Positions 1 to 45,665 of a DNA stretch of 48,726 bases are shown here, piece after piece. The DNA lies in the IMG/VR virus record IMGVR_UViG_3300020472_000045, positions 1 to 48,726 of that record; one strand, 5' to 3'. The translations under genes were made by a program, and so were the position numbers. This DNA comes from a virus. The notes under the pieces are model-generated. The model did not search any database and was not told the origin of the DNA. It worked only from the letters and a program-made list of their open reading frames with translations. The number at the start of each line of letters is the position of its first letter. The stretch's first letter is position 1.

Positions 1-70
1 CGAAGTCATCACCCCAAAATCGGGAACGACTCTCACACTCGGAAAAAAAGAGGAGAGAGATAGACTCTAA
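1..70 (+). CDS. 3' end of a rightward gene (partial)
   Basis: A frame open from base 2 to a TAA at 68-70 encodes about 22 residues ending KKEERDRL. It stops eight bases before a strong terminator, which suggests the true end of a gene that begins outside the window. The fragment is too short to assign a function and could be chance. Confidence 0.4.
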   Translation, partial: EVITPKSGTTLTLGKKEERDRL

Positions 71-77
71 AAAAATC

Positions 78-115
78 GGGTGGCTTGGAGAAATCCGAGC
101 CACCCAATTTTTTTT
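78..115 (+). terminator. Strong intrinsic terminator, probably bidirectional
   Basis: A 12-bp stem (78-89 with 94-105, one G-T pair) closes a GAAA tetraloop and is followed by eight T. An A-tract at 69-75 on the other side would give a U-tract to leftward transcripts. Confidence 0.9.
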
Positions 116-120
116 GCAGC

Positions 121-228
121 TCAGAGTCAATGCGGTTCAGAGTCAATGCGGTGGTAAGAGGGCATCCGGTGCGGGTATGCACTGCAATTTTTTGGTGGGT
201 TTATCGGGTGAATCTTGCCGTGTGAATC
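121..228 (+). repeat. Motif array A
   Basis: Contains CAGAGTCAATGCGGT twice in tandem (121-149), then CATCCGGT, ACTGCAAT (181-188), a GGGTGAATC box and GTGTGAATCT. The last box runs into the palindrome at 229. This is the first of about ten intergenic arrays with the same element order and orientation. Confidence 0.8.
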
Positions 229-244
229 TGTGACATATGACACA
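229..244. promoter_or_regulatory. CRP/GlxR-like box 1
   Basis: TGTGACATATGACACA, one mismatch from TGTGA-N6-TCACA. Its centre lies about 63 bases before the predicted start point of the 330 gene, a class I-like position. Confidence 0.6.
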
Positions 245-263
245 AAGAAATGTCAACTTGAGG

Positions 264-293
264 TTGTTGTTTCGTATAGTTCTTTTATATAAT
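264..293 (+). promoter_or_regulatory. Sigma70-type promoter for the 330 gene
   Basis: TTGTTG (264-269), an 18-base spacer and TATAAT (288-293). The gene start with an AGGAAGG ribosome site follows within 40 bases. Confidence 0.6.
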
Positions 294-329
294 TTAGGTA
301 TAAGCAAATTGCTTATAGGAAGGTTAGAA

Positions 330-617
330 ATGACAGTAACTATTGCAAGTCCTATAAGAGTCCTAGACTCTACCCCACTCAATGAGTGGGCATCTGAATA
401 TACCGCTGACATATGTCAAGCATTAGTCCATGCGTATATTCTCACTACAGATACACCCGAACTATACCAAGCGAGTTGGGTAGATTTTGGTAAAGATTGG
501 CAACTAAACTTTGCATCCAATAAGTTGAACGACTTAGGTGGAGCATTGGTCGAGGTTTACCACAACCCGAAAGATCCTGAGTATGTAGGAACGGTGGTAG
601 TCGATTACGATAACTAA
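330..617 (+). CDS. Hypothetical protein, 95 aa
   Basis: Start chosen at 330 because AGGAAGGTTAGAA precedes it, the leader pattern shared by most genes in this region; the longer frame from 237 would run through the promoter. The protein is acidic and soluble, with tryptophans and a C-terminal beta-like stretch ending VVVDYDN. No family recognised. It is a single-gene unit bounded by array A and a hairpin. A partial palindrome (CTGACATATGTCAAG) sits inside the gene near 408. Confidence 0.7.
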   Translation: MTVTIASPIRVLDSTPLNEWASEYTADICQALVHAYILTTDTPELYQASWVDFGKDWQLNFASNKLNDLGGALVEVYHNPKDPEYVGTVVVDYDN

Positions 618-632
618 TCGCAATAGCGGAAC

Positions 633-666
633 AACCCTCACCCTTATTACCTTTCGGGTGGGGGTT
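633..666 (+). terminator. Terminator-like hairpin after the 330 gene
   Basis: An 11-bp stem (633-643 with 656-666, one G-T pair) and a 12-base loop. The T-rich tail CTTTCGCGTTT is weak. Confidence 0.6.
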
Positions 667-679
667 CTTTCGCGTTTAA

Positions 680-777
680 GAGAGTTCATCCGGTTATGAG
701 TAGATGCGGTTATGGCTCCTACAGGGAATGGTAACTGCAATCCCGCAGCTGAATTAGCGTGTGAATCTTAGGGTGTG
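680..777 (+). repeat. Motif array B
   Basis: In order: TCATCCGGTTATG, AGATGCGGTTATGG, ACTGCAAT (734-741), GCGTGTGAATCT and GGTGTGAATTT. Same order and orientation as array A. No TGTGA-N6-TCACA box follows, unlike most units. Confidence 0.8.
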
Positions 778-850
778 AATTTAACCATTAGTTGATATAT
801 TGGAAGTGGTGGTGAAAGCCACCGAAAACAGAATATGAAAGGTTATGAAA

Positions 851-1237
851 ATGAATTATCAAACCGCCCTCAAATATAGAGAGCAAGTCGCTAGTAAAGG
901 TTTGCTAGCAGTAATGAACGAAATCGGATTAGATGTATTTGAATCCGACAGGATAAACGCAGACATAAGGGAACGACATGGGGACACACCCTATTGCGCT
1001 CCTGATGTCATCCCCGAAGAGGGACATTGTGGTGGCGGAGATGCTTACCCAATATGTTGCACAGGACACCGCTTCCTAAACGACATCGAAGTTTCCATCT
1101 ACGACCATGAAATGCTTTTAGAGCAAGAAGAAGTAGCTCGGATTCAAGCTAACACCCCAGCTTACGGAACTCCAGAAGCTGAATGGTACCTAATGGACGA
1201 TATGGAAAGGCAGACCATGAACCCTTGGTTGCGATAA
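851..1237 (+). CDS. Hypothetical protein, 128 aa
   Basis: Start at 851 preferred over the in-frame ATG at 845, because its distance from AAAGG matches neighbouring genes. Acidic protein. A central CGGGDAYPICC segment with further Cys/His could bind metal or form a turn. The C-terminal half is helical and Glu-rich. No family recognised. Sole gene of its unit, between array B and a TTCG-loop hairpin. Confidence 0.7.
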   Translation: MNYQTALKYREQVASKGLLAVMNEIGLDVFESDRINADIRERHGDTPYCAPDVIPEEGHCGGGDAYPICCTGHRFLNDIEVSIYDHEMLLEQEEVARIQANTPAYGTPEAEWYLMDDMERQTMNPWLR

Positions 1238-1241
1238 GATT

Positions 1242-1261
1242 GGGGGAGCTTCGGCTCCCCT
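1242..1261 (+). terminator. Hairpin terminator with TTCG loop
   Basis: GGGGAGC, a TTCG tetraloop and GCTCCCC (1243-1260), directly after the stop at 1237. The following TTAATC gives only a weak U-tract. Confidence 0.65.
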
Positions 1262-1265
1262 TAAT

Positions 1266-1386
1266 CAATCCGGCTTCAAAGTGGTTCCGGTTCAGGTTGA
1301 GGGCATGCGGTTATGGTCGGTGCTTCCGGCGGGGAACTGCAATCTTGAGCTGGATTTAGCGTGTGAATCTCGCGGGTGAATCCGGT
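1266..1386 (+). repeat. Motif array C
   Basis: Contains AATCCGGCTT, GTTCCGGTT, CATGCGGTTATGG, CTTCCGGCG, ACTGCAAT (1336-1343), GCGTGTGAATCT and GCGGGTGAATCCGGTT. It lies between convergent genes, so the arrays are not simply promoters. Confidence 0.8.
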
Positions 1387-1396
1387 TGAAACAGGG

Positions 1397-1430
1397 CAAA
1401 AAAAAAGAGGGGCTTTCGCCCCCCTGATTT
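1397..1430 (-). terminator. Bidirectional terminator
   Basis: On the minus strand: a GC-rich stem (1406-1423) with a GAAA loop followed by nine T (1405-1397). On the plus strand the hairpin is followed by a T-rich stretch from 1426. It ends the 1438-1866 gene. Confidence 0.85.
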
Positions 1431-1437
1431 TTCTTTA

Positions 1438-1866
1438 TTATCTGTAATTCCATTTACTGTTCATAGGAGCGTCATAAAGTATGGTGTCGCAAATCTCGCA
1501 ACGGTAAATGCTAGGGAACATAAATTCCATTGATATGTGTCCTTGCGGGACTAGAGGCAACTCGTAAACTTCGCCCTCTTCATTCTCCCACGCCATAACC
1601 CCATCATCTCTTTTATGGGTGCGCTCCAAATTATTCCATTCACCTTTATTGTCCAACATCGTTATTAGCCAAGTGTGTCCGGCTTCGAGGTATTCCGATT
1701 TTTCATCTTCATCAGTTTGCCCGAACTTGAAACAAGGAACACATAAGTCCCAAGAATGAGAACCTGCGTGTTCCGGCAGTTTGCCACAATGAGTAACCCT
1801 TACGCCAATTTGCGATTTAGGGTCTCTTTCAATATCTTCATAACTTTCGTATTCATAGTCTTTCAT
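1438..1866 (-). CDS. Hypothetical protein with Cys/His pairs, 142 aa
   Basis: Start at 1866 chosen for AGAAAGGTAATGCT before the ATG; the frame extends eleven codons upstream without such a site. An N-terminal CGKLPEHAGSHSW followed by CVPC resembles small zinc-binding modules common in actinobacteria and their phages. A second CEIC pair lies near the C-terminus. Possibly a two-site metal-binding protein; function unknown. Single-gene unit with no clear CRP-like box. Confidence 0.7.
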   Translation of the reverse strand: MKDYEYESYEDIERDPKSQIGVRVTHCGKLPEHAGSHSWDLCVPCFKFGQTDEDEKSEYLEAGHTWLITMLDNKGEWNNLERTHKRDDGVMAWENEEGEVYELPLVPQGHISMEFMFPSIYRCEICDTILYDAPMNSKWNYR

Positions 1867-1956
1867 AGCATTACCTTTCTGTTTTGTTTGTATATTCATT
1901 ATATACAGTCAACCTGAAATTGAAACCTATATACAAAAAACTTTTATTTTTTTTTC

Positions 1957-2030
1957 AGCGCTTCCGGTTACGAGAGCATGGACGCGCAGAAGCCCCACCA
2001 GCAAACAGAAGAACTGGTGAGGCTTCCGGT
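1957..2030 (+). repeat. Partial motif array D with hairpin
   Basis: CTTCCGGTTACG is followed by an imperfect 12-bp stem-loop (1990-2001 with 2014-2025, one mismatch), then CTTCCGGTTTAG. The hairpin may terminate the leftward ardC unit, though no U-tract follows. Confidence 0.5.
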
Positions 2031-2165
2031 TTAGAGTTCTTCCATCAAACGAGCTTCCTTAGCTTCATCCATTGGGTCGAGCGGATGCGGTCTATCCATA
2101 GCTTTGTCCAACATTTCAAACATGCCAAAAATCGCATCCCATGATGGGGTGTCATCCGGTTTCAT
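2031..2165 (-). CDS. Hypothetical small protein, 44 aa
   Basis: Begins MKPDDTPSWDAIFGMFEML and ends ARLMEEL. Its ATG overlaps the TGA of the ardC-like gene (ATGA), which indicates translational coupling. Acidic, amphipathic helix-rich, Met-rich. Function unknown; co-expression suggests a role linked to the antirestriction protein. Confidence 0.65.
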   Translation of the reverse strand: MKPDDTPSWDAIFGMFEMLDKAMDRPHPLDPMDEAKEARLMEEL

Positions 2166-3070
2166 GCTACCTCCCTTCCAAGCTCAAGCAATGCGGGATT
2201 GCTGTTGTCGATTATCCACTTGACGGCAGTTCCGGCTTTGGAAGCTGCTGACCAAATAAAATCTTTGTCATCATTAAGCGCCTTTAACCAAGACTTAATG
2301 TAGTTGGCGTGATCCGGTCGAGGATTGGTAGCTACTCCGAAATGAGCAGAAAGAAAAACTGCGCCAAGCTCGGCAACTAATTCTTCAAAAGCGTATCCGG
2401 CTCGCCCTTCCTTGAGCTTGTCGTTACTGCGATTCGTCCGGCTTGAGTGTGCTGTCCAGTGTGTGAACTCATGGGCGACAGTTCCGAACCATCCGGCTGG
2501 AGTCTCAAACTGGACATCTTCGGGAGTGCTTATGTAGTCGCCATGCGGGGAGTAGAACGCCATATCGCTAGGGGTTTCTCTCCAGTCAGCTCCGAGAGAC
2601 TTAAAGTACGTCCGGTAATCATCCACATTTATATCGGGACTTAATACTGGTTGCTCCCATGCGGGTGCGCCCTCTACCTGACTGGCATGAAAAACCATGT
2701 AAGCACGAAACATCATCCGGCTATCAAACTGGTCTTTAACCGATGCGGTTGGGGCTTTATTAGTCCATTTGCCAGTATCTTTATTTTTGTAAGATTTTCC
2801 AACATATAGAATTGCTTGCCCGCTTTCTCCGGCTTGGACTTGTGCGCCCAATTTCTGCCATCCTTTATATGTAGACCAGCGAGGGTCTCCGGTTGGGTTT
2901 ATCCACATTAAAAGCATTTGATTGCCTCCGGTGTAGATAGTCCCTGTAGCTGGGTTCTGAGCTAATCCGGTTCGACCGGCCCATGGCTTTGTCCATTCTT
3001 CAGGGGAGTTTTCCATTTGCTCAATCACTGCGGTGGTGAGCTGTTCAATGACGGTATCTGTTTTTGACAT
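2162..3070 (-). CDS. ardC: ArdC-like antirestriction protein, 302 aa
   Basis: The N-terminal part (about residues 1-140) reads like the ArdC single-strand-DNA-binding domain, with TGGNQMLLMW and WSTYKGWQKLGAQV. The C-terminal part is a zincin-like metallopeptidase domain with HEFTH (200-204) and a downstream EELVAE glutamate (229-234), the expected third zinc ligand. ArdC proteins on plasmids and phages protect incoming DNA from host restriction. Start at 3070 chosen over 3097 because GAAAGGAATTACCAAA precedes it. First gene of a two-gene leftward unit with a CRP-like box upstream. Confidence 0.85.
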   Translation of the reverse strand: MSKTDTVIEQLTTAVIEQMENSPEEWTKPWAGRTGLAQNPATGTIYTGGNQMLLMWINPTGDPRWSTYKGWQKLGAQVQAGESGQAILYVGKSYKNKDTGKWTNKAPTASVKDQFDSRMMFRAYMVFHASQVEGAPAWEQPVLSPDINVDDYRTYFKSLGADWRETPSDMAFYSPHGDYISTPEDVQFETPAGWFGTVAHEFTHWTAHSSRTNRSNDKLKEGRAGYAFEELVAELGAVFLSAHFGVATNPRPDHANYIKSWLKALNDDKDFIWSAASKAGTAVKWIIDNSNPALLELGREVA

Positions 3071-3131
3071 TTTGGTAATTCCTTTCGTTTTTGTCATATA
3101 TTCATTCTAAAGGTAAACCATCAGTTTCCAC

Positions 3132-3147
3132 CATGACATATGTCACA
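3132..3147. promoter_or_regulatory. CRP/GlxR-like box 2
   Basis: CATGACATATGTCACA, one mismatch from TGTGA-N6-TCACA, upstream of the ardC-like unit. A TAGAAT -10 candidate (minus strand) lies near 3105. Confidence 0.6.
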
Positions 3148-3157
3148 CCAGCTGCAA

Positions 3158-3327
3158 AACCAATGCGGGTCAGCTCAGACGGCATCCGGTCACACGATGC
3201 GGGCATATCCGGTTTAGGTGCGAGTCGATGCGGTCGTATAGGGGCATAAAAAAACACGGTGACTGCAATCTTGGACTGCAATCACCGTGTGAATCTAGCG
3301 GGTAAATCCAGCGGGTGAATCTAGAAG
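3158..3327 (+). repeat. Motif array E
   Basis: Elements in order: AATGCGGG, CATCCGGTCACACGATGCGG, ATATCCGGTTT, GAGTCGATGCGGTCG, ACTGCAATC twice (3262 and 3275), GTGTGAATCT, GCGGGTAAATCC and GCGGGTGAATCT. It lies between divergent and convergent gene ends. Confidence 0.8.
3248..3290 (-). terminator. Terminator built around two ACTGCAAT boxes
   Basis: A 9-bp stem ACACGGTGA/TCACCGTGT (3254-3262 with 3282-3290). On the minus strand it is followed by seven T (3254-3248). Both ACTGCAAT elements sit in the loop. It would end the 3328-3801 transcript. Confidence 0.75.
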
Positions 3328-3801
3328 TTAAAAATCCACTTTGCGCCAGTCTTTCTCGTAGAAGCGCTCCCAAAAAGTTACACAGTCTATGCTCTCCGAA
3401 CAATAGTAAAGGTAAATCATATTTAGTATTCCTGAGTCGAAAATGTTGTCGATGCACATAGGAGAGAGACCGATATCACGCATATCGGCATAACCCAGAT
3501 CAACCATTTTCGCTACCGTGTCTATTCGTTGCCTAGCCAAGATATTACGTGGGCGCTCCGCTAACTTTCCCCACGCATCCAAATCCTGTATATATACATG
3601 GTCAATAGAAAACCCGCGCTTGTAATCACGCCATTTTCTTTTAGCCTTTTGTTTATACCGCTTAACAAAATAAGGGACAGGGAACCTAATCAAATCTTGT
3701 TGCCCCATAGGTTCACCCACAGGACAACCTTCCCAGTCCACACTTTGCCCCGTGTTGTAGTATCTGACGGCTCCTACAAGCCGATTCCAATAATTTAACA
3801 T
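3328..3801 (-). CDS. Hypothetical protein with RNA polymerase alphaCTD-like segment, 157 aa
   Basis: Basic central region (KRYKQKAKRKWRDYKRG), then a stretch near residues 83-120 (ERPRNILARQRIDTVAKM, then LGYADMRDIGLSP) whose spacing resembles the helix-hairpin-helix of the RNA polymerase alpha subunit C-terminal domain: R-x2-N-x-L, I-x-TV, L, D-x-R-x-I. This suggests DNA or RNA polymerase contact. The assignment is by eye only. Start supported by GAAAGGTTGAATT. A CRP-like box lies upstream and a terminator directly downstream. Confidence 0.7.
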   Translation of the reverse strand: MLNYWNRLVGAVRYYNTGQSVDWEGCPVGEPMGQQDLIRFPVPYFVKRYKQKAKRKWRDYKRGFSIDHVYIQDLDAWGKLAERPRNILARQRIDTVAKMVDLGYADMRDIGLSPMCIDNIFDSGILNMIYLYYCSESIDCVTFWERFYEKDWRKVDF

Positions 3802-3855
3802 AATTCAACCTTTCATTAGATATAGATATTCTATACAAACCACAACCTAATTCCT

Positions 3856-3871
3856 TGTGACATGCGACACA
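3856..3871. promoter_or_regulatory. CRP/GlxR-like box 3
   Basis: TGTGACATGCGACACA, one half-site mismatch, upstream of the leftward 3801 gene. Confidence 0.55.
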
Positions 3872-3876
3872 GCGGG

Positions 3877-4005
3877 GGGCGGTGCGTGATCCGGTCGCTT
3901 CCGGTTGCGGAGCGAGTGGATGCGGTTGAGGCGAGGGCTTCCGGTTACGGACTGCAAAGCTGGGCAGAGTTTATCGTGTGAATTTCATCGGGTGAATCCG
4001 GTTGG
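3877..4005 (+). repeat. Motif array F
   Basis: GATCCGGTCGCTTCCGGTTG, GGATGCGGTTG, GCTTCCGGTTACG, ACTGCAAA, ATCGTGTGAATTT and ATCGGGTGAATCCGGTT, ending five bases before box 4. It separates divergent genes. Confidence 0.8.
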
Positions 4006-4009
4006 GTGG

Positions 4010-4025
4010 TGTGATATATGTCACA
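4010..4025. promoter_or_regulatory. CRP/GlxR-like box 4 (perfect)
   Basis: TGTGATATATGTCACA matches TGTGA-N6-TCACA exactly and has the central TA of the GlxR consensus. Its centre is about 47 bases upstream of the predicted start point, four bases from the -35 element. Confidence 0.75.
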
Positions 4026-4029
4026 AAGG

Positions 4030-4058
4030 TTGTCAACTACCACTTGAACTGTTATGAT
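4030..4058 (+). promoter_or_regulatory. Sigma70-type promoter for the 4085 gene
   Basis: TTGTCA (4030-4035), a 17-base spacer and TATGAT (4053-4058). The clearest promoter in the accessory region. Confidence 0.75.
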
Positions 4059-4084
4059 GTAGTTACAACAAAGAAAGGTTAGTA

Positions 4085-4240
4085 ATGGATTGGTATGAAT
4101 TAATTTCATCAAAAACAATTACCCTCACAGAAGATGAGGTTGCCACACTAGGCACCCTCATAGATTGTATGAGAGTGGCAGAACTCGCTCTCAAAAAGGC
4201 TATGCCTGTCCTTGATAAGGTGGCAGACCCTTACGAATAA
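4085..4240 (+). CDS. Hypothetical small protein, 51 aa
   Basis: Begins MDWYELISSKTITLTEDEV and ends VADPYE. It has the AAGAAAGGTTAGTA leader typical of the region, its own promoter and a hairpin just after the stop. Predicted as two helices; no family recognised. The complete promoter-leader-terminator context makes it a convincing gene despite its size. Confidence 0.75.
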   Translation: MDWYELISSKTITLTEDEVATLGTLIDCMRVAELALKKAMPVLDKVADPYE

Positions 4241-4252
4241 CAGGGGTTGAGA

Positions 4253-4280
4253 GGGAGCTGGAAATGAGTCCCCAGCTCCC
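4253..4280 (+). terminator. Hairpin terminator after the 4085 gene
   Basis: GGGAGCTGG/CCAGCTCCC, a 9-bp stem with a 10-base loop, 13 bases after the stop. The U-tract is weak (CGAACCTCTT). Confidence 0.6.
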
Positions 4281-4286
4281 CGAACC

Positions 4287-4330
4287 TCTTCCGGTCATCA
4301 TCCGGCGGTGGTGTAGGTGTTTCCGGTTGT
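4287..4330 (+). repeat. Short motif array G
   Basis: CTTCCGGTCATCATCCGGCG and GTTTCCGGTTGTG. Only CCGGY elements are present; the ACTGCAAT and GTGTGAATCT elements are missing. Confidence 0.6.
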
Positions 4331-4332
4331 GG

Positions 4333-4348
4333 TGTGACAGATGACACA
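4333..4348. promoter_or_regulatory. CRP/GlxR-like box 5
   Basis: TGTGACAGATGACACA, one half-site mismatch. Its centre is about 63 bases upstream of the predicted start, the same spacing as box 1. Confidence 0.6.
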
Positions 4349-4367
4349 AAACAATTTGCATCAGAGG

Positions 4368-4397
4368 TTTCAATTAGCAGTGGAATTTGTATACGAT
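4368..4397 (+). promoter_or_regulatory. Candidate promoter for the 4429 gene
   Basis: TTTCAA (4368-4373), an 18-base spacer and TACGAT (4392-4397). The match is weaker than at 4030. Confidence 0.4.
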
Positions 4398-4428
4398 AAG
4401 AGGGTAAACAAAAACGGAAAGGTTAGAT

Positions 4429-4611
4429 ATGAAAGTCACTATCGAAGTTGAAGTGGACTGGAACAAATTTGTTTCTGAGCTTGGAGTTATAGGGCAGTCA
4501 TGTTCAGAGGATGTGGTGGACTCTATAGAAGGTCTTGTTAACTCAGGATTACCTATTGCCTCGCAAAACTGGGTTAAAGACACCCAAGTCACATACAACA
4601 GATACAAGTAA
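4429..4611 (+). CDS. Hypothetical protein, 60 aa
   Basis: Preceded by GGAAAGGTTAGAT. Begins MKVTIEVEVDWNKFVSELG; acidic, an N-terminal beta strand then helices. No family recognised. Single-gene unit with a CRP-like box upstream and a hairpin downstream. Confidence 0.7.
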   Translation: MKVTIEVEVDWNKFVSELGVIGQSCSEDVVDSIEGLVNSGLPIASQNWVKDTQVTYNRYK

Positions 4612-4642
4612 GACTGAGGGGGAGCTTTGCTCCCTCAAAGTC
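4612..4642 (+). terminator. Hairpin terminator after the 4429 gene
   Basis: GACTGAGGG...GGAGC, a TTT loop, GCTCCCTCA...AGTC, with a small G bulge, starting immediately after the stop codon. Confidence 0.55.
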
Positions 4643-4766
4643 ATTCCGGTTGCAGCTCCAGTCAATGCGGGCGCGAAAAAAGGGACTCCGGCGTAGAAAG
4701 GTTAGAAACAACACCGAAGTCCCTTAGAACTATTGCAATCTTACCACATATTTATCGGGTGAATTT
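4643..4766 (+). repeat. Motif array H with a decayed gene leader
   Basis: ATTCCGGTTG, GTCAATGCGGGCG, CTCCGGCG, TATTGCAATC and ATCGGGTGAATTT. Between them (about 4696-4710) lies TAGAAAGGTTAGAA, the standard ribosome-site leader, but followed by ACA instead of ATG. It is enclosed by AGGGACT/AGTCCCT inverted repeats. Confidence 0.6.
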
Positions 4767-4774
4767 TATTCGGC

Positions 4775-4966
4775 TCATGCCTTCACCACCATGTTGTAGT
4801 AATGCCTAAACATTAAATCTTCTGCTTCGATGAGGACAGCTATCTCATCCGCCCAGTCGTCATCACCGTACTGCTGGTTTTCTTCCAAGAAATGAATGAC
4901 CTTAGTGATAGCCCCTTCCGTTGCCAAGTCCCAAATCTTTTCCTTTTCTAAATTTATGATTTCCAT
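4775..4966 (-). CDS. Hypothetical protein, 63 aa
   Basis: Last gene of a five-gene leftward operon starting at 5931. Its start lies 13 bases inside the upstream zinc-ribbon gene. Acidic and mainly helical (WDLATEGAITKVIHFLEEN). No family recognised. Array H lies downstream. Confidence 0.65.
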   Translation of the reverse strand: MEIINLEKEKIWDLATEGAITKVIHFLEENQQYGDDDWADEIAVLIEAEDLMFRHYYNMVVKA

Positions 4967-5127
4967 TGATACATCCCTGTGTCAGGATTCGCTTCACCGC
5001 AGTCCCAACATTCCGGTTCGTTCTCATAGTATGTCTGCCCACAGTTGTCGCAATCATAGACAGCGGGTGAAAATTGGCTCATGTCACTCTCGGCGTAAAA
5101 TCCGATGACACCGTATTTATCCGGCAT
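4954..5127 (-). CDS. Zinc-ribbon-like protein, 57 aa
   Basis: Begins MPDKYGVIGFYAESD. C26DNC29 and C40WDC43 form two CxxC knuckles separated by ten residues, a rubredoxin/zinc-ribbon pattern. Its ATG shares one base with the preceding TAA (TAATG), so it is translationally coupled. Likely binds zinc; target unknown. Confidence 0.7.
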   Translation of the reverse strand: MPDKYGVIGFYAESDMSQFSPAVYDCDNCGQTYYENEPECWDCGEANPDTGMYQWKS

Positions 5128-5270
5128 TAGCCCACCTCACAATCGTGTCCGTAAAACCATTCTCCGGCTTCATCTTCATCCCACAAGTCGAAAACTCTGT
5201 TGCACTCAACGCAAGCCACCGGAGTCTGACTATTGAATATCTCCGCTAGGTTCTCTGTTCTAACCTTCAT
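5127..5270 (-). CDS. Small Cys-containing protein, 47 aa
   Basis: Begins MKVRTENLAEIF. CVEC (20-23) and a later HDC (42-44) suggest a degenerate zinc finger. The start overlaps the upstream TGA (ATGA) and the stop overlaps the next start (TAATG), so it lies between two coupled genes. Confidence 0.65.
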   Translation of the reverse strand: MKVRTENLAEIFNSQTPVACVECNRVFDLWDEDEAGEWFYGHDCEVG

Positions 5271-5731
5271 ACCAGTTCCCCCCTTGACCTTTCACGCCTT
5301 GAGAGGATGCGGTCGCAACATTCCTTCACGGTTATTCCGTAACCGAGTTGTTTCAGTAAGCTATTAACAACAGCGTCACCTTCACCTATGAGGTAGCCAC
5401 TTGCCAATTCTTCAATGGTGTCCGGCTCTAGGGAAATCATATACTGACCATTTTCCTCATCGAAACCAACGCCAGTAAATACAGCTGTACCTTTAAGAAG
5501 ATACTGTGCCTGTGTCGCCTCAGTAACTATCTGACTTGCTAACCAGTTAACGGCAAGGTCATCTCTCAATAACCCCGACTCATTAACCCAACAATCAATC
5601 CGGCTAGGGACTTGTAGGGAAACTCTCTCAATTAAACCCTCAACCATTGAACGAACATCGTTGTAGCTGTCATCGGTGGGCTCAACTAGGAAAGCGTCTC
5701 CCTCATCGGATATAACTAAATAGTGGCTCAT
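5267..5731 (-). CDS. DUF3846-like protein, 154 aa
   Basis: The first 100 residues follow the DUF3846 outline: a start such as YLVISDEGDAFLVEP, a helix, then an Asp-rich WVNESGLLRDDLAVNWLAS and the closing GTAVFTG. DUF3846 proteins are common in actinobacterial phages and plasmids and have no known function. The C-terminal tail is Arg/Glu-rich. ATGA overlaps link it to both neighbours. Confidence 0.7.
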   Translation of the reverse strand: MSHYLVISDEGDAFLVEPTDDSYNDVRSMVEGLIERVSLQVPSRIDCWVNESGLLRDDLAVNWLASQIVTEATQAQYLLKGTAVFTGVGFDEENGQYMISLEPDTIEELASGYLIGEGDAVVNSLLKQLGYGITVKECCDRILSRRERSRGELV

Positions 5732-5931
5732 GCTTGCACCACCGTTACATCGCCTAAGTCCATCCGGCTAACAAGGTCAACTCTTTTAACTGCGTCAACG
5801 TGTTCCTGTAAAATGGAAATCATCAGTTCGCAATCTGCCCCGAATTGATTAGGTGAGTCCCCCGCATTTAGCGAGTCGTCAATCACCAGTTCTACCCAAT
5901 GGTCAACTCTGTTTTCATTTGCTTTTACCAT
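5728..5931 (-). CDS. Hypothetical protein, 67 aa
   Basis: First gene of the 5931-4775 operon. The start has AGAAAGGGAATAGAA upstream. Acidic and helical; no family recognised. Its TGA overlaps the next ATG. Confidence 0.7.
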   Translation of the reverse strand: MVKANENRVDHWVELVIDDSLNAGDSPNQFGADCELMISILQEHVDAVKRVDLVSRMDLGDVTVVQA

Positions 5932-5961
5932 TTCTATTCCCTTTCTATTTCTACTAATACA

Positions 5962-5991
5962 ATTCTAGGAGCAGTTGACGTAAAACCTCAA
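5962..5991 (-). promoter_or_regulatory. Promoter of the 5931-4775 operon
   Basis: On the minus strand: TTGAGG (5991-5986), an 18-base spacer and TAGAAT (5967-5962). Confidence 0.65.
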
Positions 5992-5993
5992 AT

Positions 5994-6009
5994 TGTGACA
6001 AGAGTCACA
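5994..6009. promoter_or_regulatory. CRP/GlxR-like box 6 (perfect arms)
   Basis: TGTGACAAGAGTCACA lies two bases upstream of the -35 element. Its centre is at about -46, a class II-like placement. Confidence 0.7.
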
Positions 6010-6011
6010 TC

Positions 6012-6142
6012 AGGGCGTTCCGGTCACACGATGCGGTCTCCGGCTATATGTGAAAGGGATGCGGTTACCGTTTCGTGATGGCATGCGTTGAGACTGAGGA
6101 TAACTGCAATCCCCCTCACAGTTCTATGTGTGAATCTGTCGG
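6012..6142 (+). repeat. Motif array I
   Basis: GTTCCGGTCACACGATGCGG, TCTCCGGC, GGATGCGGTTACCG, ACTGCAAT (6103-6110), TGTGTGAATCTGTC and GGGTGGATTT. The last boxes overlap the end of the 6116 gene, so array sequence is read as its C-terminus. Confidence 0.75.
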
Positions 6143-6337
6143 GTGGATTTCAAACGAAGCATAAGGCGTGTGCTTCCCATTCACTCCGGCAGCTGCAAAG
6201 ATGTCGGCACAGCAAACGTCACCACCAGTATCATCTACATAAACCTTTCCGGTTTGGGTGATAGGTGATTTGCAATGAACGCACACCAGCTTGTAATGCG
6301 AACCAGTCACTTTACGAAAGTAAGGGATACTAGGCAT
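6116..6337 (-). CDS. Small Cys-pair protein, 73 aa
   Basis: Start at 6337 chosen for AGAGGACTA upstream and a TAATG overlap with the preceding gene. CVHC and a later CC-A-D suggest a zinc site. The last residues (HPTDSHIEL) are encoded by motif-array DNA. Last gene of a seven-gene operon beginning at 7525. Confidence 0.65.
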   Translation of the reverse strand: MPSIPYFRKVTGSHYKLVCVHCKSPITQTGKVYVDDTGGDVCCADIFAAAGVNGKHTPYASFEIHPTDSHIEL

Positions 6338-6513
6338 TAGTCCTCTTTCCATTCGGCATATTCATTTAGGCACATCATTATGATGCGCGCTCTGTTACAT
6401 AAGGCTTGTCTGCATTTGATAAGTTCTTCATCGGTCAACTCGGCTAAACCTTCGTGGAGTTCTTCCGCTTCATTCCACGCATCGTCAATATCTACTTTCA
6501 TTTGACCTAGCAT
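6337..6513 (-). CDS. Hypothetical protein, 58 aa
   Basis: Begins MLGQMKVDIDDAWNEAEEL. Start at 6513 preferred because GGGGGAGG lies upstream, inside the preceding gene; the ATG at 6501 is an alternative. Helical and acidic with Cys and Met in the C-terminal half. Confidence 0.6.
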   Translation of the reverse strand: MLGQMKVDIDDAWNEAEELHEGLAELTDEELIKCRQALCNRARIIMMCLNEYAEWKED

Positions 6514-6632
6514 GTTGTATCATCCTCCCCCAACTCCAAATTCGATATTTGTTTGCAACACCATGCGAACACGCTGGCACATAAAGAAAACACACCTAGT
6601 AGTATCGCAAAGACTGTCGTCTCACCATCCAT
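6507..6632 (-). CDS. Single-pass membrane micro-protein, 41 aa
   Basis: Begins MDGETTVFAILLGVFS. One hydrophobic segment covers about residues 7-26 and ends in CC-K, followed by a short acidic tail. A strong AAGGAG precedes the ATG, which overlaps the previous TAA. Inner-membrane location is inferred; function unknown. Confidence 0.7.
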   Translation of the reverse strand: MDGETTVFAILLGVFSLCASVFAWCCKQISNLELGEDDTTC

Positions 6633-6850
6633 TAAATCTCCTTATCCCAGTCCCACTCATCACGGTTGATAAAGCGGAAAACTTCTTCACTTGCTTTTGT
6701 TGTACCTCCACGACCTTCATTCATTCCACAACCTCTTTCCGGTTCTTGGATATGGATGTAAGCCTCGACATCATATGAATAAGCAACGTCACGGTCACAA
6801 TCAATACACGGTTGGATAGTCTCGATTTCCATATATTTGATTTCAGTCAT
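6632..6850 (-). CDS. Small CxxC protein, 72 aa
   Basis: Start at 6850 set by an ATGA overlap with the upstream stop. CIDC near the N-terminus and another Cys-Gly-Cys-like motif (RGCGM) suggest a metal site. The C-terminus is acidic and Trp-containing. No family recognised. Confidence 0.65.
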   Translation of the reverse strand: MTEIKYMEIETIQPCIDCDRDVAYSYDVEAYIHIQEPERGCGMNEGRGGTTKASEEVFRFINRDEWDWDKEI

Positions 6851-7167
6851 CCCGCTTCCCCCTTGTGCCACTCTGAGGCATAATCACCATCCAACATCAA
6901 ACCATCGCCTTCTTCCCAATAGATTTGCTCGTAAGACTCATGGTCATCCGACTCGACACCGTAAAATGAACTTTCAAAAGACGCAGATGGGGACAACGAA
7001 TAACTGTCTCTTTCAAGACGCAAATCCTCTGCCTCCACTTGTTCTTTTATGTACTCCAACAGGTCTTCCGGTTTAACGGTGTAAGGCACTTTATACTCAG
7101 CATCAAAATTCCTACTCTCGGTGCAATGTGTAATGCCTTGCACTTTTACCGTGTAATGTTCAGTCAT
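6847..7167 (-). CDS. Hypothetical acidic protein, 106 aa
   Basis: Beta-strand-rich start (HYTVKVQGITHC) then a long acidic, Ser/Tyr-rich part. Coupled to both neighbours by ATGA overlaps. The N-terminal layout resembles the 7340-7525 product (strand, then acidic helix), so these may be related small folds. Confidence 0.65.
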   Translation of the reverse strand: MTEHYTVKVQGITHCTESRNFDAEYKVPYTVKPEDLLEYIKEQVEAEDLRLERDSYSLSPSASFESSFYGVESDDHESYEQIYWEEGDGLMLDGDYASEWHKGEAG

Positions 7168-7343
7168 TCCGCTTCCTCGATGTCCACCTCAACAACCATG
7201 TAGTGGTCGTTGTAAAGTTTAGAGGTCAACTCATCTACCAATTTTTCCAATTCAGGGTTTTCTTTCCAAATGGCATCTTTGGATGTAGCTTCGACTTCAT
7301 GTGCATAAAGGTATGTGGCATCTATGTTTATTAGATACTTCAT
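7164..7343 (-). CDS. Hypothetical protein, 59 aa
   Basis: Begins MKYLINIDATYLYAHEVEAT and ends VEVDIEEAE: strand, helix, strand. GAGGAAAAGAC precedes the ATG, which overlaps the upstream TGA. Second gene of the 7525 operon. Confidence 0.65.
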   Translation of the reverse strand: MKYLINIDATYLYAHEVEATSKDAIWKENPELEKLVDELTSKLYNDHYMVVEVDIEEAE

Positions 7344-7525
7344 GTCTTTTCCTCTATCCGCATGATTCGACCATTGTCGATTATTATTCCGTTCTCCATA
7401 TCAGGAGACATTCCAGCAATGATGTCAAACGCAAATCTTTCTGCATCATGTTCATCGTCAGCTTCAACTTCGATGACATCAGGGACTTCTACCATCCATG
7501 AAACATCTATAGTGTAAGTATTCAT
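7340..7525 (-). CDS. Hypothetical protein, 61 aa
   Basis: First gene of a seven-gene leftward operon. The start has AGAAAGGCAAAACT. Pattern: strand, EVEADDEHDAERFAFD helix, strand; a fold seen in many small phage proteins of unknown role. Confidence 0.65.
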   Translation of the reverse strand: MNTYTIDVSWMVEVPDVIEVEADDEHDAERFAFDIIAGMSPDMENGIIIDNGRIMRIEEKT

Positions 7526-7550
7526 AGTTTTGCCTTTCTTTATGTATATA

Positions 7551-7578
7551 ACTCTATCGTGTCAACTGGTAATTGCAA
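7551..7578 (-). promoter_or_regulatory. Candidate promoter of the 7525 operon
   Basis: On the minus strand: TTGCAA (7578-7573), a 16-base spacer and TAGAGT (7556-7551). Confidence 0.5.
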
Positions 7579-7594
7579 CATGACATTTGTCACA
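7579..7594. promoter_or_regulatory. CRP/GlxR-like box 7
   Basis: CATGACATTTGTCACA, one mismatch, adjacent to the -35 element of the 7525 operon. It overlaps the stop codon of the gene upstream. Confidence 0.6.
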
Positions 7595-7745
7595 CTCCCT
7601 CCAACGGAAGAACAATCCAACCATGACGGTCGTTCGCCAATTCCTTAGCAATCGCATACTGCACCGCTTCCGGTTCAGAGTCGAATTTCCCGACACACTT
7701 CTGACCGTTGCGGTATTCGTTGCCAAAAACACAAATCGTGAACAT
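7590..7745 (-). CDS. Hypothetical protein, 51 aa
   Basis: Start at 7745 (TGATG overlap, AGGA five bases upstream) preferred over 7751. It reads MFTICVFGNEYRNGQKCVG, then a helix AVQYAIAKELAND, then WIVLPLEGV. Resembles small strand-helix-strand proteins. Last gene of the 8704 operon; its stop lies in CRP-like box 7. Confidence 0.65.
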   Translation of the reverse strand: MFTICVFGNEYRNGQKCVGKFDSEPEAVQYAIAKELANDRHGWIVLPLEGV

Positions 7746-8392
7746 CAGCATCCTGCTTTCTCTAGAGCCATATCCGCTATAACGGTTTCGCTCCCCACCT
7801 CACGCAATGTATCTACCAGTTTTTCTTCGGCTATGGCATACTTTTCATACCAAGCATCCTCATCGAAATCAGGGTTATCCCAATCTGCTTCCGGTATATC
7901 CATATCAGGATGGTCGTGGTGGACAGTTGTCTTTTCACCATTATGGAAAATATCCACTCCTGCAAACATCATGCCACCTTCGTAATAAACATTAGAGAAC
8001 CACAGCTCAGGGTAATCAAGGCTAACTTTTGTGAAATCGCTCGGGCCCCATGCGGTCTGATAGGTGTAGTAATGGTTTGGTACTCCCATATACTCCCCTG
8101 CGCCTCTAGAGGTAGTATCACAGTCACCCCATTTAGAACCCCAGTTATCAAGACACCATTGGTAGCCATCGAACCCATCTTCGGCTTCTTCTGTAAAAGC
8201 ACTCCCGACTACTTCACCGTCTATAACAATTTCCTTGCTGGCTCGTTCCGGTGAAGGTAGCAAGCTCTTAAAAATTTCATAAGCCGTACAGTCGTCATAT
8301 TCGACAGTTATATGCTCCAAGAAATCCCACAGCTCCCCATCATTCTCAGGGGTGCTGAAAATAGTTAAATAATTATCACACCAATTCGGCAT
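7745..8392 (-). CDS. DUF1281/Api92-like protein, 215 aa
   Basis: Begins MPNWCDNYLTIF, the hallmark start of the Api92/YubB (DUF1281) family found on plasmids and phages. The middle has the usual WCLDNWGSKWG and a W-rich beta part (YQTAWGPSDF). Function of the family is unknown; it has a ferredoxin-like fold. Start at 8392 chosen for GAGAGGATACTA; the frame extends 18 codons further without a ribosome site. Confidence 0.8.
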   Translation of the reverse strand: MPNWCDNYLTIFSTPENDGELWDFLEHITVEYDDCTAYEIFKSLLPSPERASKEIVIDGEVVGSAFTEEAEDGFDGYQWCLDNWGSKWGDCDTTSRGAGEYMGVPNHYYTYQTAWGPSDFTKVSLDYPELWFSNVYYEGGMMFAGVDIFHNGEKTTVHHDHPDMDIPEADWDNPDFDEDAWYEKYAIAEEKLVDTLREVGSETVIADMALEKAGC

Positions 8393-8519
8393 TAGTATCC
8401 TCTCTTTCCTCAAATTCCAGAGCAAGCAGTTGTTTGAAATCTTCAACTGCCTCTATGACATCTGCCCCAAGAAAGGAATCGAAGTCATCTTTTATCATTA
8501 CTGTTACTGTTCTAGGCAT
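8376..8519 (-). CDS. Hypothetical protein, 47 aa
   Basis: Begins MPRTVTVMIKDDFDSFLGAD. Overlaps both the upstream gene (16 bases) and the downstream DUF1281-like gene. GCGGAGCA precedes the ATG. Acidic and helical. Confidence 0.6.
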   Translation of the reverse strand: MPRTVTVMIKDDFDSFLGADVIEAVEDFKQLLALEFEEREDTNAELV

Positions 8520-8704
8520 TGCTCCGCCCCCTCTACTTCAAACATAAGAAATTCTTGAATATCATCAAAGCTCATTACCAAGTGTTTACGGTAAGAGTCT
8601 GCGACATCAGAACTTTCAGCGTCAGTAAAATCGTGCATGATTATTGCACCCAACGCATCGGATAATGTCATCGCATTAACCTTCTCTAATATTTCATCTA
8701 CCAT
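8504..8704 (-). CDS. Hypothetical protein, 66 aa
   Basis: First gene of the leftward 8704-7590 operon. The start is preceded by AGAAAGGCAAAACTA, nearly identical to the leader at 7525. Helical and acidic (VDEILEKVNAMTLSDALGA). No family recognised. Confidence 0.65.
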   Translation of the reverse strand: MVDEILEKVNAMTLSDALGAIIMHDFTDAESSDVADSYRKHLVMSFDDIQEFLMFEVEGAEQCLEQ

Positions 8705-8776
8705 TAGTTTTGCCTTTCTATAGTCAATTCAACCATAAAATGACTCTATCAAACTAAAACAACTTTTCACACACTT

Positions 8777-8792
8777 TGTGACAACTGTCACT
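8777..8792. promoter_or_regulatory. CRP/GlxR-like box 8
   Basis: TGTGACAACTGTCACT, a single terminal mismatch, upstream of the leftward 8704 gene. Confidence 0.6.
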
Positions 8793-8798
8793 TTCGGC

Positions 8799-8930
8799 GC
8801 ATCCGGTTAGAGCGTGAGTCGATGCGGTGGCATGCGGGGGGATGCGGTTAAGCGATGCGGGGGGATGCGGTGTTTTTTGGTACTGCATTTGTGGGACTGC
8901 ATTGGCGTGTGAATTTGGGCGTGTGAATCT
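8799..8930 (+). repeat. Motif array J
   Basis: CATCCGGTTAG, GAGTCGATGCGGTGG, CATGCGGGGGGATGCGGTTA, GCGATGCGGGGGGATGCGG, ACTGCATT twice, GCGTGTGAATTT and GCGTGTGAATCT. The last box forms the left half of box 9. Confidence 0.8.
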
Positions 8931-8937
8931 TGTCACA
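8922..8937. promoter_or_regulatory. CRP/GlxR-like box 9, fused to a GTGTGAATCT repeat
   Basis: TGTGAATCTTGTCACA matches TGTGA-N6-TCACA exactly. Its left arm is the last GTGTGAATCT box of array J, so the two motif families are related. Confidence 0.7.
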
Positions 8938-8950
8938 TGTGAGTTGGTAG

Positions 8951-8978
8951 TTGACCCATCTACTGGTATAGTTACTGT
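8951..8978 (+). promoter_or_regulatory. Candidate promoter of the 9001 unit
   Basis: TTGACC (8951-8956), a 16-base spacer and TACTGT (8973-8978). Good -35, modest -10. Confidence 0.45.
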
Positions 8979-9000
8979 ATACGAAATAGAAAGGACAGAA

Positions 9001-9204
9001 ATGTTAACAAGAAAACACATGAACGCATTAGCGGAGGTAGTAAAAGACTTCCCAGGTGTGGGCTATGAAGCTCAGAGTGGTGACAAAGCTTACCTAGCAG
9101 CTCAACTAGCAAACATATGCGCTAACTCAAATCCAGCATTCGACTACAGGAGATTTTTTGAAGCCTGCGAAGTTGATGCAGAAAGAGCATGGTCATACGC
9201 ATGA
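9001..9204 (+). CDS. Hypothetical protein, 67 aa
   Basis: Start at 9001 follows AGAAAGGACAGAA; an upstream extension of the frame would run through array J and the promoter. Helical, resembling small phage proteins with LAEVVKDF and FDYRRFFEAC segments. No family recognised. Its TGA overlaps the next ATG. Confidence 0.7.
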   Translation: MLTRKHMNALAEVVKDFPGVGYEAQSGDKAYLAAQLANICANSNPAFDYRRFFEACEVDAERAWSYA

Positions 9205-9404
9205 GTCAAACAACGAATGACCGATTAGTAACAGATGTTACGTTGCGTCTAACTTTACGAGGCGACTACTGGTCTAGTCCTGAGAAATGGGACTGGACTG
9301 ACCTGTTGGATCTCGAAGGATCTGAGAACGTAGAGGTAACTGCTTCTAAGCGTATCCGCAGGATATTCCCTGACGGCTCAACGCTGGAAATGGAAAGGGG
9401 GTAA
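9201..9404 (+). CDS. Hypothetical protein, 67 aa
   Basis: Coupled to the preceding gene by ATGA. Beta-rich: VTDVTLRLTLRGDYW, then WDWTDLLDL, then strands ending STLEMERG. No family recognised. Confidence 0.65.
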   Translation: MSQTTNDRLVTDVTLRLTLRGDYWSSPEKWDWTDLLDLEGSENVEVTASKRIRRIFPDGSTLEMERG

Positions 9405-9411
9405 AAAAGCC

Positions 9412-9575
9412 TTCCGGTCGCTTCCGGTTAGTCGATGCGGTCTTTTTTTGCCGCCTGCATTTTGGTTTCCGACTCGGCGTGTGAATCCGGTTGCATTTGT
9501 GACTGCATTTCTACGTGTGAATCTATGTGTGAATCTTGGGTTGCACACAGTGGACAGACCCATCGTGTGAATCTG
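9412..9575 (+). repeat. Motif array K (last array)
   Basis: CTTCCGGTCGCTTCCGGTTA, GTCGATGCGGTC, CCTGCATTTT, GCGTGTGAATCCGGTTG, GACTGCATTT, ACGTGTGAATCTATGTGTG and TCGTGTGAATCTG. After this point the motifs become rare. It lies between convergent genes. Confidence 0.75.
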
Positions 9576-9605
9576 CCCACCGGTGCATCTGGATGACAGG
9601 GGGGG

Positions 9606-9812
9606 TCAGTCAGCCAGAGAAGCGGTACCTTTAGTACCTAGTTTTGTTGCAAGAGCGCCTTTCAATACTGAGACAGCTGCGGCGACACCTGCGCCTGCCA
9701 TCATCTTCCATTGATCTACACCCAAGTCGAACATGCTATTGGATGACATTGCACCGATAGCAGCTTGAATGAATGTAGCAGCGACTCTTTCAAATAAATC
9801 GCGAGTAAACAT
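9606..9812 (-). CDS. r1t-type holin, 68 aa
   Basis: Begins MFTRDLFERVAATFIQAAIG and continues with WKMMAGAGVAAAVSVLKGAL, the two hydrophobic helices and spacing of the phage r1t holin family common in actinophages. Holins open the membrane for lysis. GGAGGTGAGT precedes the ATG at 9812, which decides the start over the upstream in-frame ATG. No endolysin was found nearby. Confidence 0.8.
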   Translation of the reverse strand: MFTRDLFERVAATFIQAAIGAMSSNSMFDLGVDQWKMMAGAGVAAAVSVLKGALATKLGTKGTASLAD

Positions 9813-9848
9813 ACTCACCTCCATTGTTAGTTGACCAAAAAAATCCAA

Positions 9849-9984
9849 GGCAAGCCAGCAGGCAAGCGAATGGGCTTTTTTGTGTTTGTATATGTTCCTT
9901 TTGTGTGTGTATAGGGTTTGTTTTCGTATAGGGGTTCTGTTTGTGGTGTTTGTGTTTAGCCTGCACTATGCGTCTACTTATAGT
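9849..9984. other. Leader with direct repeats
   Basis: No gene seen. Contains two imperfect direct repeats around GTATAGGG (about 9907-9950), T-rich on the plus strand, and a repeated GGCAAGC at 9850-9880. Possibly a leader or promoter region for the holin. Confidence 0.35.
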
Positions 9985-10212
9985 TTAATTTGCTATTCCT
10001 AGAGCCAACGAAACGATAGCCGTAATAATCGAAGCAGGAACAGCATACATCCACCGTTCAACAGTCCTAATACGCTCCTCCAAATCGTCAGTCTTCCTAC
10101 CCTGAGTGACCATAATCGCATCAATCTTCTCATCAATAGTCTCCAACCGCTCATTCAAAACCGCTAAAGTAATCGCAGTACGAGCATCCCCCCACGGGTT
10201 ATCATCAACCAT
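9985..10212 (-). CDS. Coiled-coil plus C-terminal membrane protein, holin-associated, 75 aa
   Basis: Residues 15-55 form a charged coiled coil (NERLETIDEKIDAIM, then DDLEERIRTVERWM). The last 20 residues are one membrane segment (VPASIITAIVSLALGIAN). This is the layout of XhlA-like and other second lysis proteins next to holins. Overlaps the preceding gene by eight bases. Confidence 0.65.
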   Translation of the reverse strand: MVDDNPWGDARTAITLAVLNERLETIDEKIDAIMVTQGRKTDDLEERIRTVERWMYAVPASIITAIVSLALGIAN

Positions 10213-11462: not shown

Positions 11463-11696
11463 TTGACAATCAGATGTACGGAAAGCGAGTCTTCCTACAT
11501 GGCAGGTTGTCGTTGCGCCGATTGCCGTAACGCACACACTGTTAAAGAACGTGAACGACGCGCCATTAAACGGGGAACACCAAAAAAACAACCCCGAAAA
11601 GAAAGCTCACCTCACACCATAAAAAAAGACTATTCTAATAACATGGATACTTTGACGAGAGGGGAATTATGTCGAGCCCGTGGTTGGGAGGAGTAA
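11463..11696 (+). CDS. Small CxC-x2-C DNA-binding-type protein, 77 aa
   Basis: TTG start after AAGGAG. The motif YMAGCRCADCRNAH followed by a run of Arg/Lys matches the short cysteine module often found in actinophage HNH-type or DNA-associated proteins. Likely binds zinc and nucleic acid. A basic tail (KKQPRKESS) follows. No nuclease motif is present. Confidence 0.65.
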   Translation: MTIRCTESESSYMAGCRCADCRNAHTVKERERRAIKRGTPKKQPRKESSPHTIKKDYSNNMDTLTRGELCRARGWEE

Positions 11697-12745: not shown

Positions 12746-12752
12746 AGATAAA

Positions 12753-13475
12753 ATGCAAGTCGAAGATTCCCAGAATCTTTTCGGTGAGTGGTGGCAAGAC
12801 ATAGATGTAGACATCAAAAAAGCGGTTGTTAAACAGATTGACTACAAGACAGCTGCAAGTGTAATTATCAAATATGAGTGGCTTGGGTGTATGCCAGCAA
12901 TGGTCAAATACTGTTTTGGTATCTACTTTGACGACAATTTAGCTGGAGCTGTTGTTTACAGCACCGAATACATCGAGAACTTAGGTAAATGGGATAAGTA
13001 TGATTACACAGGGAAAATCATTCTGTTGTCCAGAGGCGCTTGTGTCCATTGGGCTCACCCTCATAGTGCCAGCAAACTGATAACAAGCTCTATGAAGATG
13101 CTCCCTGAGAAATACAAAGTTGTCACTGCGACAGTTGATGACCATGCTGGTGAAATAGGAACTATTTATCAGGCGTGTAATTTTGTTTACATAGGTTCTA
13201 TGCGAGACAACAACCCGAATGTTAAAAGCAGAAAAGATGACAGGTTCGGAGTTGAGATTGACGGCAAGCTATACACCGCACGTTCAATGCGACAGAAAGT
13301 AGGGTCGCAGAAGAAAGCAGACATTTTGAAGGTTTACCCTGATGCTGTGTTCGTCCCTCAAGCCAGCAAGAAAAGATACTTCTACTTTCTGGGGGATAAA
13401 AAAGAAAGAAAGTACCTTCGGAGTAAAATAGAAAACCAGATTCAACCCTACCCAAAGCGTGACAGTAATGATTGA
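12753..13475 (+). CDS. Mom-like DNA-modification protein 1, 240 aa
   Basis: The GNAT-like middle contains RGACVHWAHPHSASKL and GEIGTIYQACNFVYIG (about 134-149), matching the conserved region of phage Mu Mom and relatives, which convert adenine to N6-carbamoylmethyl-adenine and block restriction. Start at 12753 is tentative; 12720 is an alternative, and neither has a strong ribosome site. It is directly followed by a paralogue. The C-terminus carries YFYFLGDKKERKYL, also shared by the paralogue. Confidence 0.7.
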   Translation: MQVEDSQNLFGEWWQDIDVDIKKAVVKQIDYKTAASVIIKYEWLGCMPAMVKYCFGIYFDDNLAGAVVYSTEYIENLGKWDKYDYTGKIILLSRGACVHWAHPHSASKLITSSMKMLPEKYKVVTATVDDHAGEIGTIYQACNFVYIGSMRDNNPNVKSRKDDRFGVEIDGKLYTARSMRQKVGSQKKADILKVYPDAVFVPQASKKRYFYFLGDKKERKYLRSKIENQIQPYPKRDSND

Positions 13476-45662: not shown

Positions 45663-45665
45663 AAT

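Follow-up and report, generated by a model that had tools for sequence, protein, structure and literature searches.

Strand-polar YCCGG words and boundary arrays as possible one-way transcription stop sites in a marine phage family

L5-type stoperators are asymmetric 13-mers, mostly intergenic, and their reversal abolishes the block to transcription elongation (PMC9283540). T7 RNA polymerase class II terminators act via a 7-bp word for which the nontemplate strand is crucial (PMC11617373). Here we analyze a set of short oriented words in the IMG/VR virus record IMGVR_UViG_3300020472_000045, taken over its full length of 48,726 nucleotides (hereafter the window). These words form arrays that include the box GTGTGAATC and are accompanied by a dispersed polar word, YCCGG, which is enriched in one region of the genome and purged elsewhere.

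The arrays echo the stoperators of Cluster A mycobacteriophages (L5, Bxb1, TipsytheTRex), to which the phage immunity repressor binds, in that many short asymmetric sites occupy mostly short intergenic spaces, with a repeat pitch of ~13 bp here as compared with a 13-mer there. An orientation-dependent effect has been shown for stoperators (PMC9283540) and is proposed here. However, stoperator orientation follows local transcription, whereas the arrays keep one orientation whatever the direction of flanking genes; stoperators are dispersed genome-wide, whereas GTGTGAATC arrays are found only in the early region defined below and YCCGG is purged elsewhere. Moreover, unlike stoperators, the arrays of this one region contain several different words, the reverse case being purged elsewhere. 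Since orientation following local transcription and genome-wide dispersal were both tested and not found, we liken the arrays to stoperators functionally and do not file them as members of that family. T7 class II terminators and the CJ pause site also present a short non-hairpin word that pauses or ends transcription, there in a nontemplate-strand-dependent manner (PMC11617373), but the word is different and here, besides the arrays, there are dozens of copies. Among the proteins of this phage that were examined, none was recognized as a phage RNA polymerase. Taken as a whole, the pattern is matched less well by any known repeat than by one-way stop signs for transcription.

The window comes from a tailed phage, of which it is a 48.7-kb fragment, and encodes a large terminase, a RepO-like initiator, RusA, SNF2, ParB-like proteins and a tape measure. 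Structural, packaging and replication genes lie on its - strand, which we call the late direction, and positions 1-9600, the early region, carry small genes on both strands; the labels 'early' and 'late' are taken from gene content. Terminase- and holin-based searches identified one syntenic marine phage family, with G+C contents from 44 to 62%. In the late-direction region (9606-48726, - strand, with terminase, RepO-like, RusA, SNF2 and tail genes) YCCGG is purged from the + strand. Read on the late strand the same word is CCGGR, of which late-direction genes contain 25 copies against 393 expected (codon shuffle, 226 kb, ten genomes, coding-score gene calls). The expectations are derived from synonymous-codon shuffles and vary with the gene calls used; the picture was the same with several gene callers. 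Late-region genes on the opposite strand avoid the word on the same DNA strand (1 against 28 expected), with CCGGR in their own mRNA near normal (25 against 32); the rule therefore follows the DNA strand and not the coding strand. CCGGY is near normal in late-region open reading frames (ORFs), so that the rule is exact to about five bases. Resolved by hexamer, ACCGGA (1/48 observed/expected), CCCGGA (0/59) and GCCGGG (1/71) are nearly absent from late ORFs, ACCGGC (71/69) and TCCGGT (84/58) are close to normal, and TCCGGG is avoided only in part (18/60). A coding or codon effect is excluded by shuffles with own codons and with late codon usage, by the equal use of reading frames and by the minority-strand genes. 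At 6% of expectation in one orientation and near normal in the other, this is among the strongest strand-specific word biases visible without experiment. The purge was not seen in other marine phage families sharing the small holin-like gene that closes the late region.

The sign of selection on YCCGG depends on region and on gene direction. Early genes running in the late direction are enriched in the word, with 184 copies against 105 in own-codon shuffles and 54 with late codon usage, and the three reading frames are used equally (59/63/62). In the 18 early genes running against the late direction it is absent, with 5.8-7.6 copies expected, or 40 at the density of late-direction genes. Thus, the direction of transcription matters. 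One such late-direction gene is an ArdC-like antirestriction gene (2162-3097, - strand; phrog_7245, E=1e-67): dispersed YCCGG, together with some ATGCGG, lies on the + strand at 2155-2975, in or at the edge of the gene and antisense to it, so that CCGGR stands in the coding strand. This gene has 11 CCGGR against 4.0 in codon shuffles, the maximum being 9 across 400. In four genomes ardC carries 11-17 copies, above all 400 codon shuffles, at mostly different positions. Equal frames and a density that is kept while positions turn over argue for selection on density at the nucleic-acid level. TCCGG, dense inside this gene, is thus found beyond the intergenic arrays described in the initial annotation.

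The arrays to which that annotation had drawn attention are real. ATGCGGT occurs 18 times in the window against 3.95 expected and GTGTGAATC 12 times against 0.5, and none of 100 shuffles was as high for either. Nearly all elements of 1-9600 are on the + strand, the +/- counts being 52/1 for TCCGG, 24/2 for ATGCGG, 11/0 for ACTGCA and 13/0 for GTGTGAAT. As had been proposed, orientation is independent of the direction of flanking genes, also between convergent genes. It is kept in relatives. The arrays were said to stop near 9.6 kb: a change does take place at ~9.6 kb, but it is a flip in polarity, TCCGG numbering 0 on the + strand and 20 on the - strand in the rest of the window. The element order thought to be fixed did not hold, as CCGG and ATGCGG interleave, giving MMCAGG, CCMCAGGC, MCMCMAAGGG or CCMGCAGGG in one-letter codes for the elements CCGG, ATGCGG, ACTGCA and GTGTGAAT, and CCGG is also found after, or fused to, the last GTGTGAATC. 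The spacing from ACTGCA to GTGTGAAT is 25 bp in 14 of 26 pairs, and that between successive GTGTGAAT mostly 12-14, 26 or 37-38 bp. Both ACTGCAATC and GTGTGAATC end in AATC, and they may be regarded as two versions of a single unit that repeats on a 12-13 bp lattice.

Clusters of at least three elements, all on the + strand, are spread along the early region. The first (130-229) belongs to an array MMCAGG (121-229) lying between a terminator-like hairpin (78-105) and a + strand gene; it is followed by CMAGG between two + strand genes (689-782), by CCMCAGGC between convergent genes (1269-1390) and, within 2155-2975, by the clusters 2155-2240 and 2888-2975 inside or at the edge of coding sequence. 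In the array MCMCMAAGGG (3163-3322) both ACTGCAAT copies are located in a terminator-like hairpin with a 17-bp stem (- strand, 3290-3254). A second CCMCAGGC (3890-4006) separates divergent transcription units, and three copies of CCGG alone form the cluster 4290-4331. Between convergent genes, a sparse array CMC plus one GGGTGAATT extends over 4645-4765 (cluster 4645-4696). CMCMAG (6019-6137) is upstream of a - strand gene (5728-5931), C MMMMM AA GG (8802-8930) lies between divergent transcription units, and the boundary array C C M G C A G G G (9413-9574), the strongest and best conserved, directly follows the stop of the last late-direction gene. By eye, CRP/FNR-like palindromes TGTGACAN(2-4)TGTCACA are observed beside early promoters on both strands (232-245, 3137-3156, 3862-3875, 4009-4024, 4344-4357, 5993-6010, 7579-7596 and 8779-8796), with similar boxes in relatives. 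SAS/ESAS of Cluster K mycobacteriophages immediately precede start codons and share the strand of the gene. Like these actinophage elements, our arrays are short conserved intergenic repeats, but they follow neither gene starts nor gene strand and are also found between convergent genes.

The last late-direction gene (9606-9833, - strand), which marks the polarity switch, is small and conserved (relatives 77-90% identical); the name holin-like is based solely on its size and its apparent membrane nature. In eight family contigs the boundary array after it contains 3-6 GTGTGAATC-type boxes, always on the same strand, and in six of the eight the first box is 29-36 nt past the holin-like stop. 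In every relative that includes this region, TCCGG/CCCGG words and GTGTGAATC-type boxes are present and are oriented with respect to the late genes as they are in the window. Thus, of the four-element grammar claimed initially, CCGG and GTGTGAATC are shared by the family, but ATGCGG and ACTGCA are rare in relatives; these two words and ACTGCAAT are mostly limited to the window phage. A likeness of ATGCGGT to the uptake sequence AAGTGCGGT was dropped because ATGCGGT is rare in relatives. Across five early regions, GTGTGAATC-type boxes are intergenic in 76 of 78 cases. When the whole viral collection was scanned for pairs of GTGTGAATC boxes, only eight contigs came up, of which most are recognizable family members; a looser pattern gave mostly chance matches. 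In an 86-kb genome of the family, early-type words start sharply at the boundary array and fade over 8-16 kb in the late direction.

The arrays do not generally fold better than their shuffles (fold z mostly -1.8 to +0.5), although two of eight reached -2.3 and -3.0 on one strand, and the hairpin at 3254-3290 is an exception. No Rfam covariance model matched them at gathering thresholds, and neither Rfam nor the open-access papers searched revealed a known repeat or RNA family of this kind, in line with the initial annotation. A structured RNA or an integron attC, which is a foldable imperfect inverted repeat, was rejected on these grounds. The G+C-rich hairpin and T run of intrinsic terminators are likewise lacking in the arrays, with the same hairpin as exception, and no late-direction terminator-like site was found in the boundary array in the four genomes scanned. 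That the arrays are 'not simply promoters or terminators', as was suggested, remains correct for ordinary ones. Yet the position of one array is that expected of a late-operon terminator, and signals inside genes are tied to the direction of the gene; this points to transcription.

The sequence statistics show directly that selection on the word is strand-polar, that its sign is reversed between the two regions and that within the early region it depends on the direction of the gene; they also show a conserved boundary array and a lack of folding. A one-way word purged genome-wide except in one region points to a machine travelling in the late direction, and we favor RNA polymerase because replication, packaging and nuclease models leave the dependence on early gene direction unexplained. 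We therefore put forward tentatively, as somewhat short of an even chance, that the arrays and dispersed YCCGG are orientation-dependent transcription stop sites keeping late transcription out of the early region. Besides RNA polymerase as the machine, we infer early/late timing, stalling and the existence of a DNA-bound factor. This putative factor would act via clustered GTGTGAATC/YCCGG sites on the 12-13 bp lattice, and RNA polymerase moving in the late direction (window - strand) would be arrested at the signals. The boundary array past the holin-like gene would terminate late transcription, while arrays at other transcription-unit boundaries would bar late-direction polymerase from each early unit. 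Signals inside late-direction early genes such as ardC would allow their shut-off once the factor is present. Late genes would have to be signal-free, arrest of late-direction polymerase being fatal there, and in genes opposed to the late direction stalled polymerases would be harmful. With slightly less assurance, we suggest that this represents a genome-partition code not described before, in which a polar five-base word and boundary arrays split the genome into regions that must and must not carry the signals, working through a directional machine, most likely a late-modified RNA polymerase, recruited by a phage-specific factor unrelated to known repressors or terminators.

Several points weigh against one-way stop sites. 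Their support is sequence-based throughout, and for the early genes of opposite direction the number behind the avoidance is 18 (p about 0.0005-0.003). Avoidance in opposite-strand late genes needs either late-direction read-through or harmful stalled polymerases, and early genes with internal signals would themselves be hampered if the factor did not appear late. For a protein roadblock, five bases also make a very short site; recognition of single-stranded DNA or RNA would be easier. Finally, the sole candidate factor noted, a small family-specific helix-turn-helix (HTH) protein (25006-25296, - strand), has no link to the arrays. It is present in eight relatives (62-78% identical), is predicted with an AlphaFold pLDDT of 91 and displays weak sigma-region-4-like matches (Pfam E=0.008; Foldseek best E=0.29), with no match among 50,697 phage records or in cultured phages.

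Second in rank, although unlikely, comes a signal at the RNA level. CCGGR and the reverse complements of the boxes would act in late-direction RNA, via ribonuclease cleavage or via loading of, or termination by, a Rho-like factor, removing early late-direction messages, while late messages would avoid the word. Late mRNA is indeed purged of CCGGR, whose enrichment in early genes is confined to those of the late direction, in their sense strand, and five bases would be a fitting site length for an RNA endonuclease or RNA-binding factor. However, opposite-strand late-region genes, near normal in their own mRNA, avoid the word in antisense, as do opposite-direction early genes, which disfavors a purely RNA-level action. 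Moreover, the arrays lie beyond transcripts or in the gaps separating them, in some cases where convergent genes with terminator-like hairpins meet.

A polar replication-fork barrier of the Tus/RTP type, arresting a late-direction fork and making the early region the terminus, is improbable. It would account for avoidance that tracks the DNA strand genome-wide whatever the coding strand, but requires unidirectional replication of the whole genome, and the phage has a RepO-like initiator. Such initiators are usually tied to bidirectional theta replication. Nor does a barrier predict the split of 184 against 0 between early genes or an array at the late-gene stop codon. Still less credit goes to Chi-like signals by which a helicase-nuclease of host or phage would be controlled and the early genome end protected or recombined. 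Known Chi sites are polar words of 5-8 bases, and, like Chi and KOPS, YCCGG is a short strand-polar word with a regional orientation bias, enriched in one region. Chi and KOPS are over-represented across chromosomes, though, whereas this word is purged from the late region (25 against 393) and, where enriched, depends on gene direction; Chi-like signals give no reason for a purge from 75 kb nor for that dependence. Also against them, other marine families with the holin-like gene, possibly from different hosts, lack the purge.

Ranking lower again, packaging is a poor candidate: the arrays would be terminase-binding or headful-cut sites, and a TerS ring could accommodate boxes that repeat on a 12-13 bp lattice. 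The gene immediately upstream of the large terminase encodes an HTH protein (16758-17432; HTH_Tnp_1 E=1.5e-4) that is likely TerS, and contigs of one phage are circularly permuted. Headful cutting, however, needs no mid-genome purge, and gene direction should be irrelevant to it. More doubtful yet, the arrays would be activator sites, upstream elements of early promoters with an orientation fixed by history. Several adjoin CRP-like boxes and promoter regions by eye, but others separate convergent genes or follow the last late gene, and the genome-wide purge is left unexplained. Type III enzymes methylate adenine, which CCCGG/CCGGG lacks. Evasion of such an enzyme needing two opposed sites is hardly credible: T7 escapes EcoP15I through an extreme one-orientation site set over tens of kb (a known route, PMC12707154), whereas here the sites do not all share one orientation, an actively enriched early island of the opposite orientation creating many opposed pairs.

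The window itself is incomplete, since a single phage of ~86 kb is represented, in circular permutation, by pieces in two IMG/VR contigs of the family, G001 (64053 bases) and G010 (61519 bases), with overlaps >99.9% identical; it is perhaps without 35-40 kb including portal, capsid and lysis genes. A cos end at the polarity switch was considered, as several contigs begin near the holin-like gene, and rejected, as other family contigs run through and two contigs of one phage are permuted. Ahead of the holin-like gene, a conserved non-coding stretch (9840-9985), A/C-rich on the - strand, separates it from gene 9985-10212; its CCTATAC repeats and a hairpin with a T-run may form a small RNA or a promoter-terminator unit. 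The window has no DNA match to cultured phages and the phages contain no tRNAs. Relatives with ~84% identical terminase range from 44% to 62% G+C, unusually wide for phages this close. TerL and ParB-like proteins are closest to actinophages, yet the single best TerL match is a Methanothermobacter phage, so that an actinobacterial host is only a guess; the sole contig match, a metagenome-assembled genome labelled Gammaproteobacteria, is probably a phage contig that was binned wrongly. Two Mom-like DNA modification proteins (within 12666-14436, + strand), together with the ArdC-like protein, suggest a phage heavily invested in evading restriction. AGCT-containing pentamers are strongly under-represented on both strands in late genes of ten family genomes (for instance AAGCT, 58 against 298), as an AluI-like host restriction system would predict; unlike that of CCGGR, this shortage is non-polar. 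A 2OG-Fe(II) oxygenase and TauD-like gene cluster is also present (42470-47212, - strand; 11669-12745, + strand; 14566-15141, - strand).

If the arrays and dispersed YCCGG do stop transcription one way, they would offer a general solution to the open problem of how runaway late transcription is ended or confined on a circular or concatemeric genome, and could provide orientation-dependent insulators for gene engineering. Should they instead serve replication, packaging or RNA decay, these statistics would open such mechanisms to testing.

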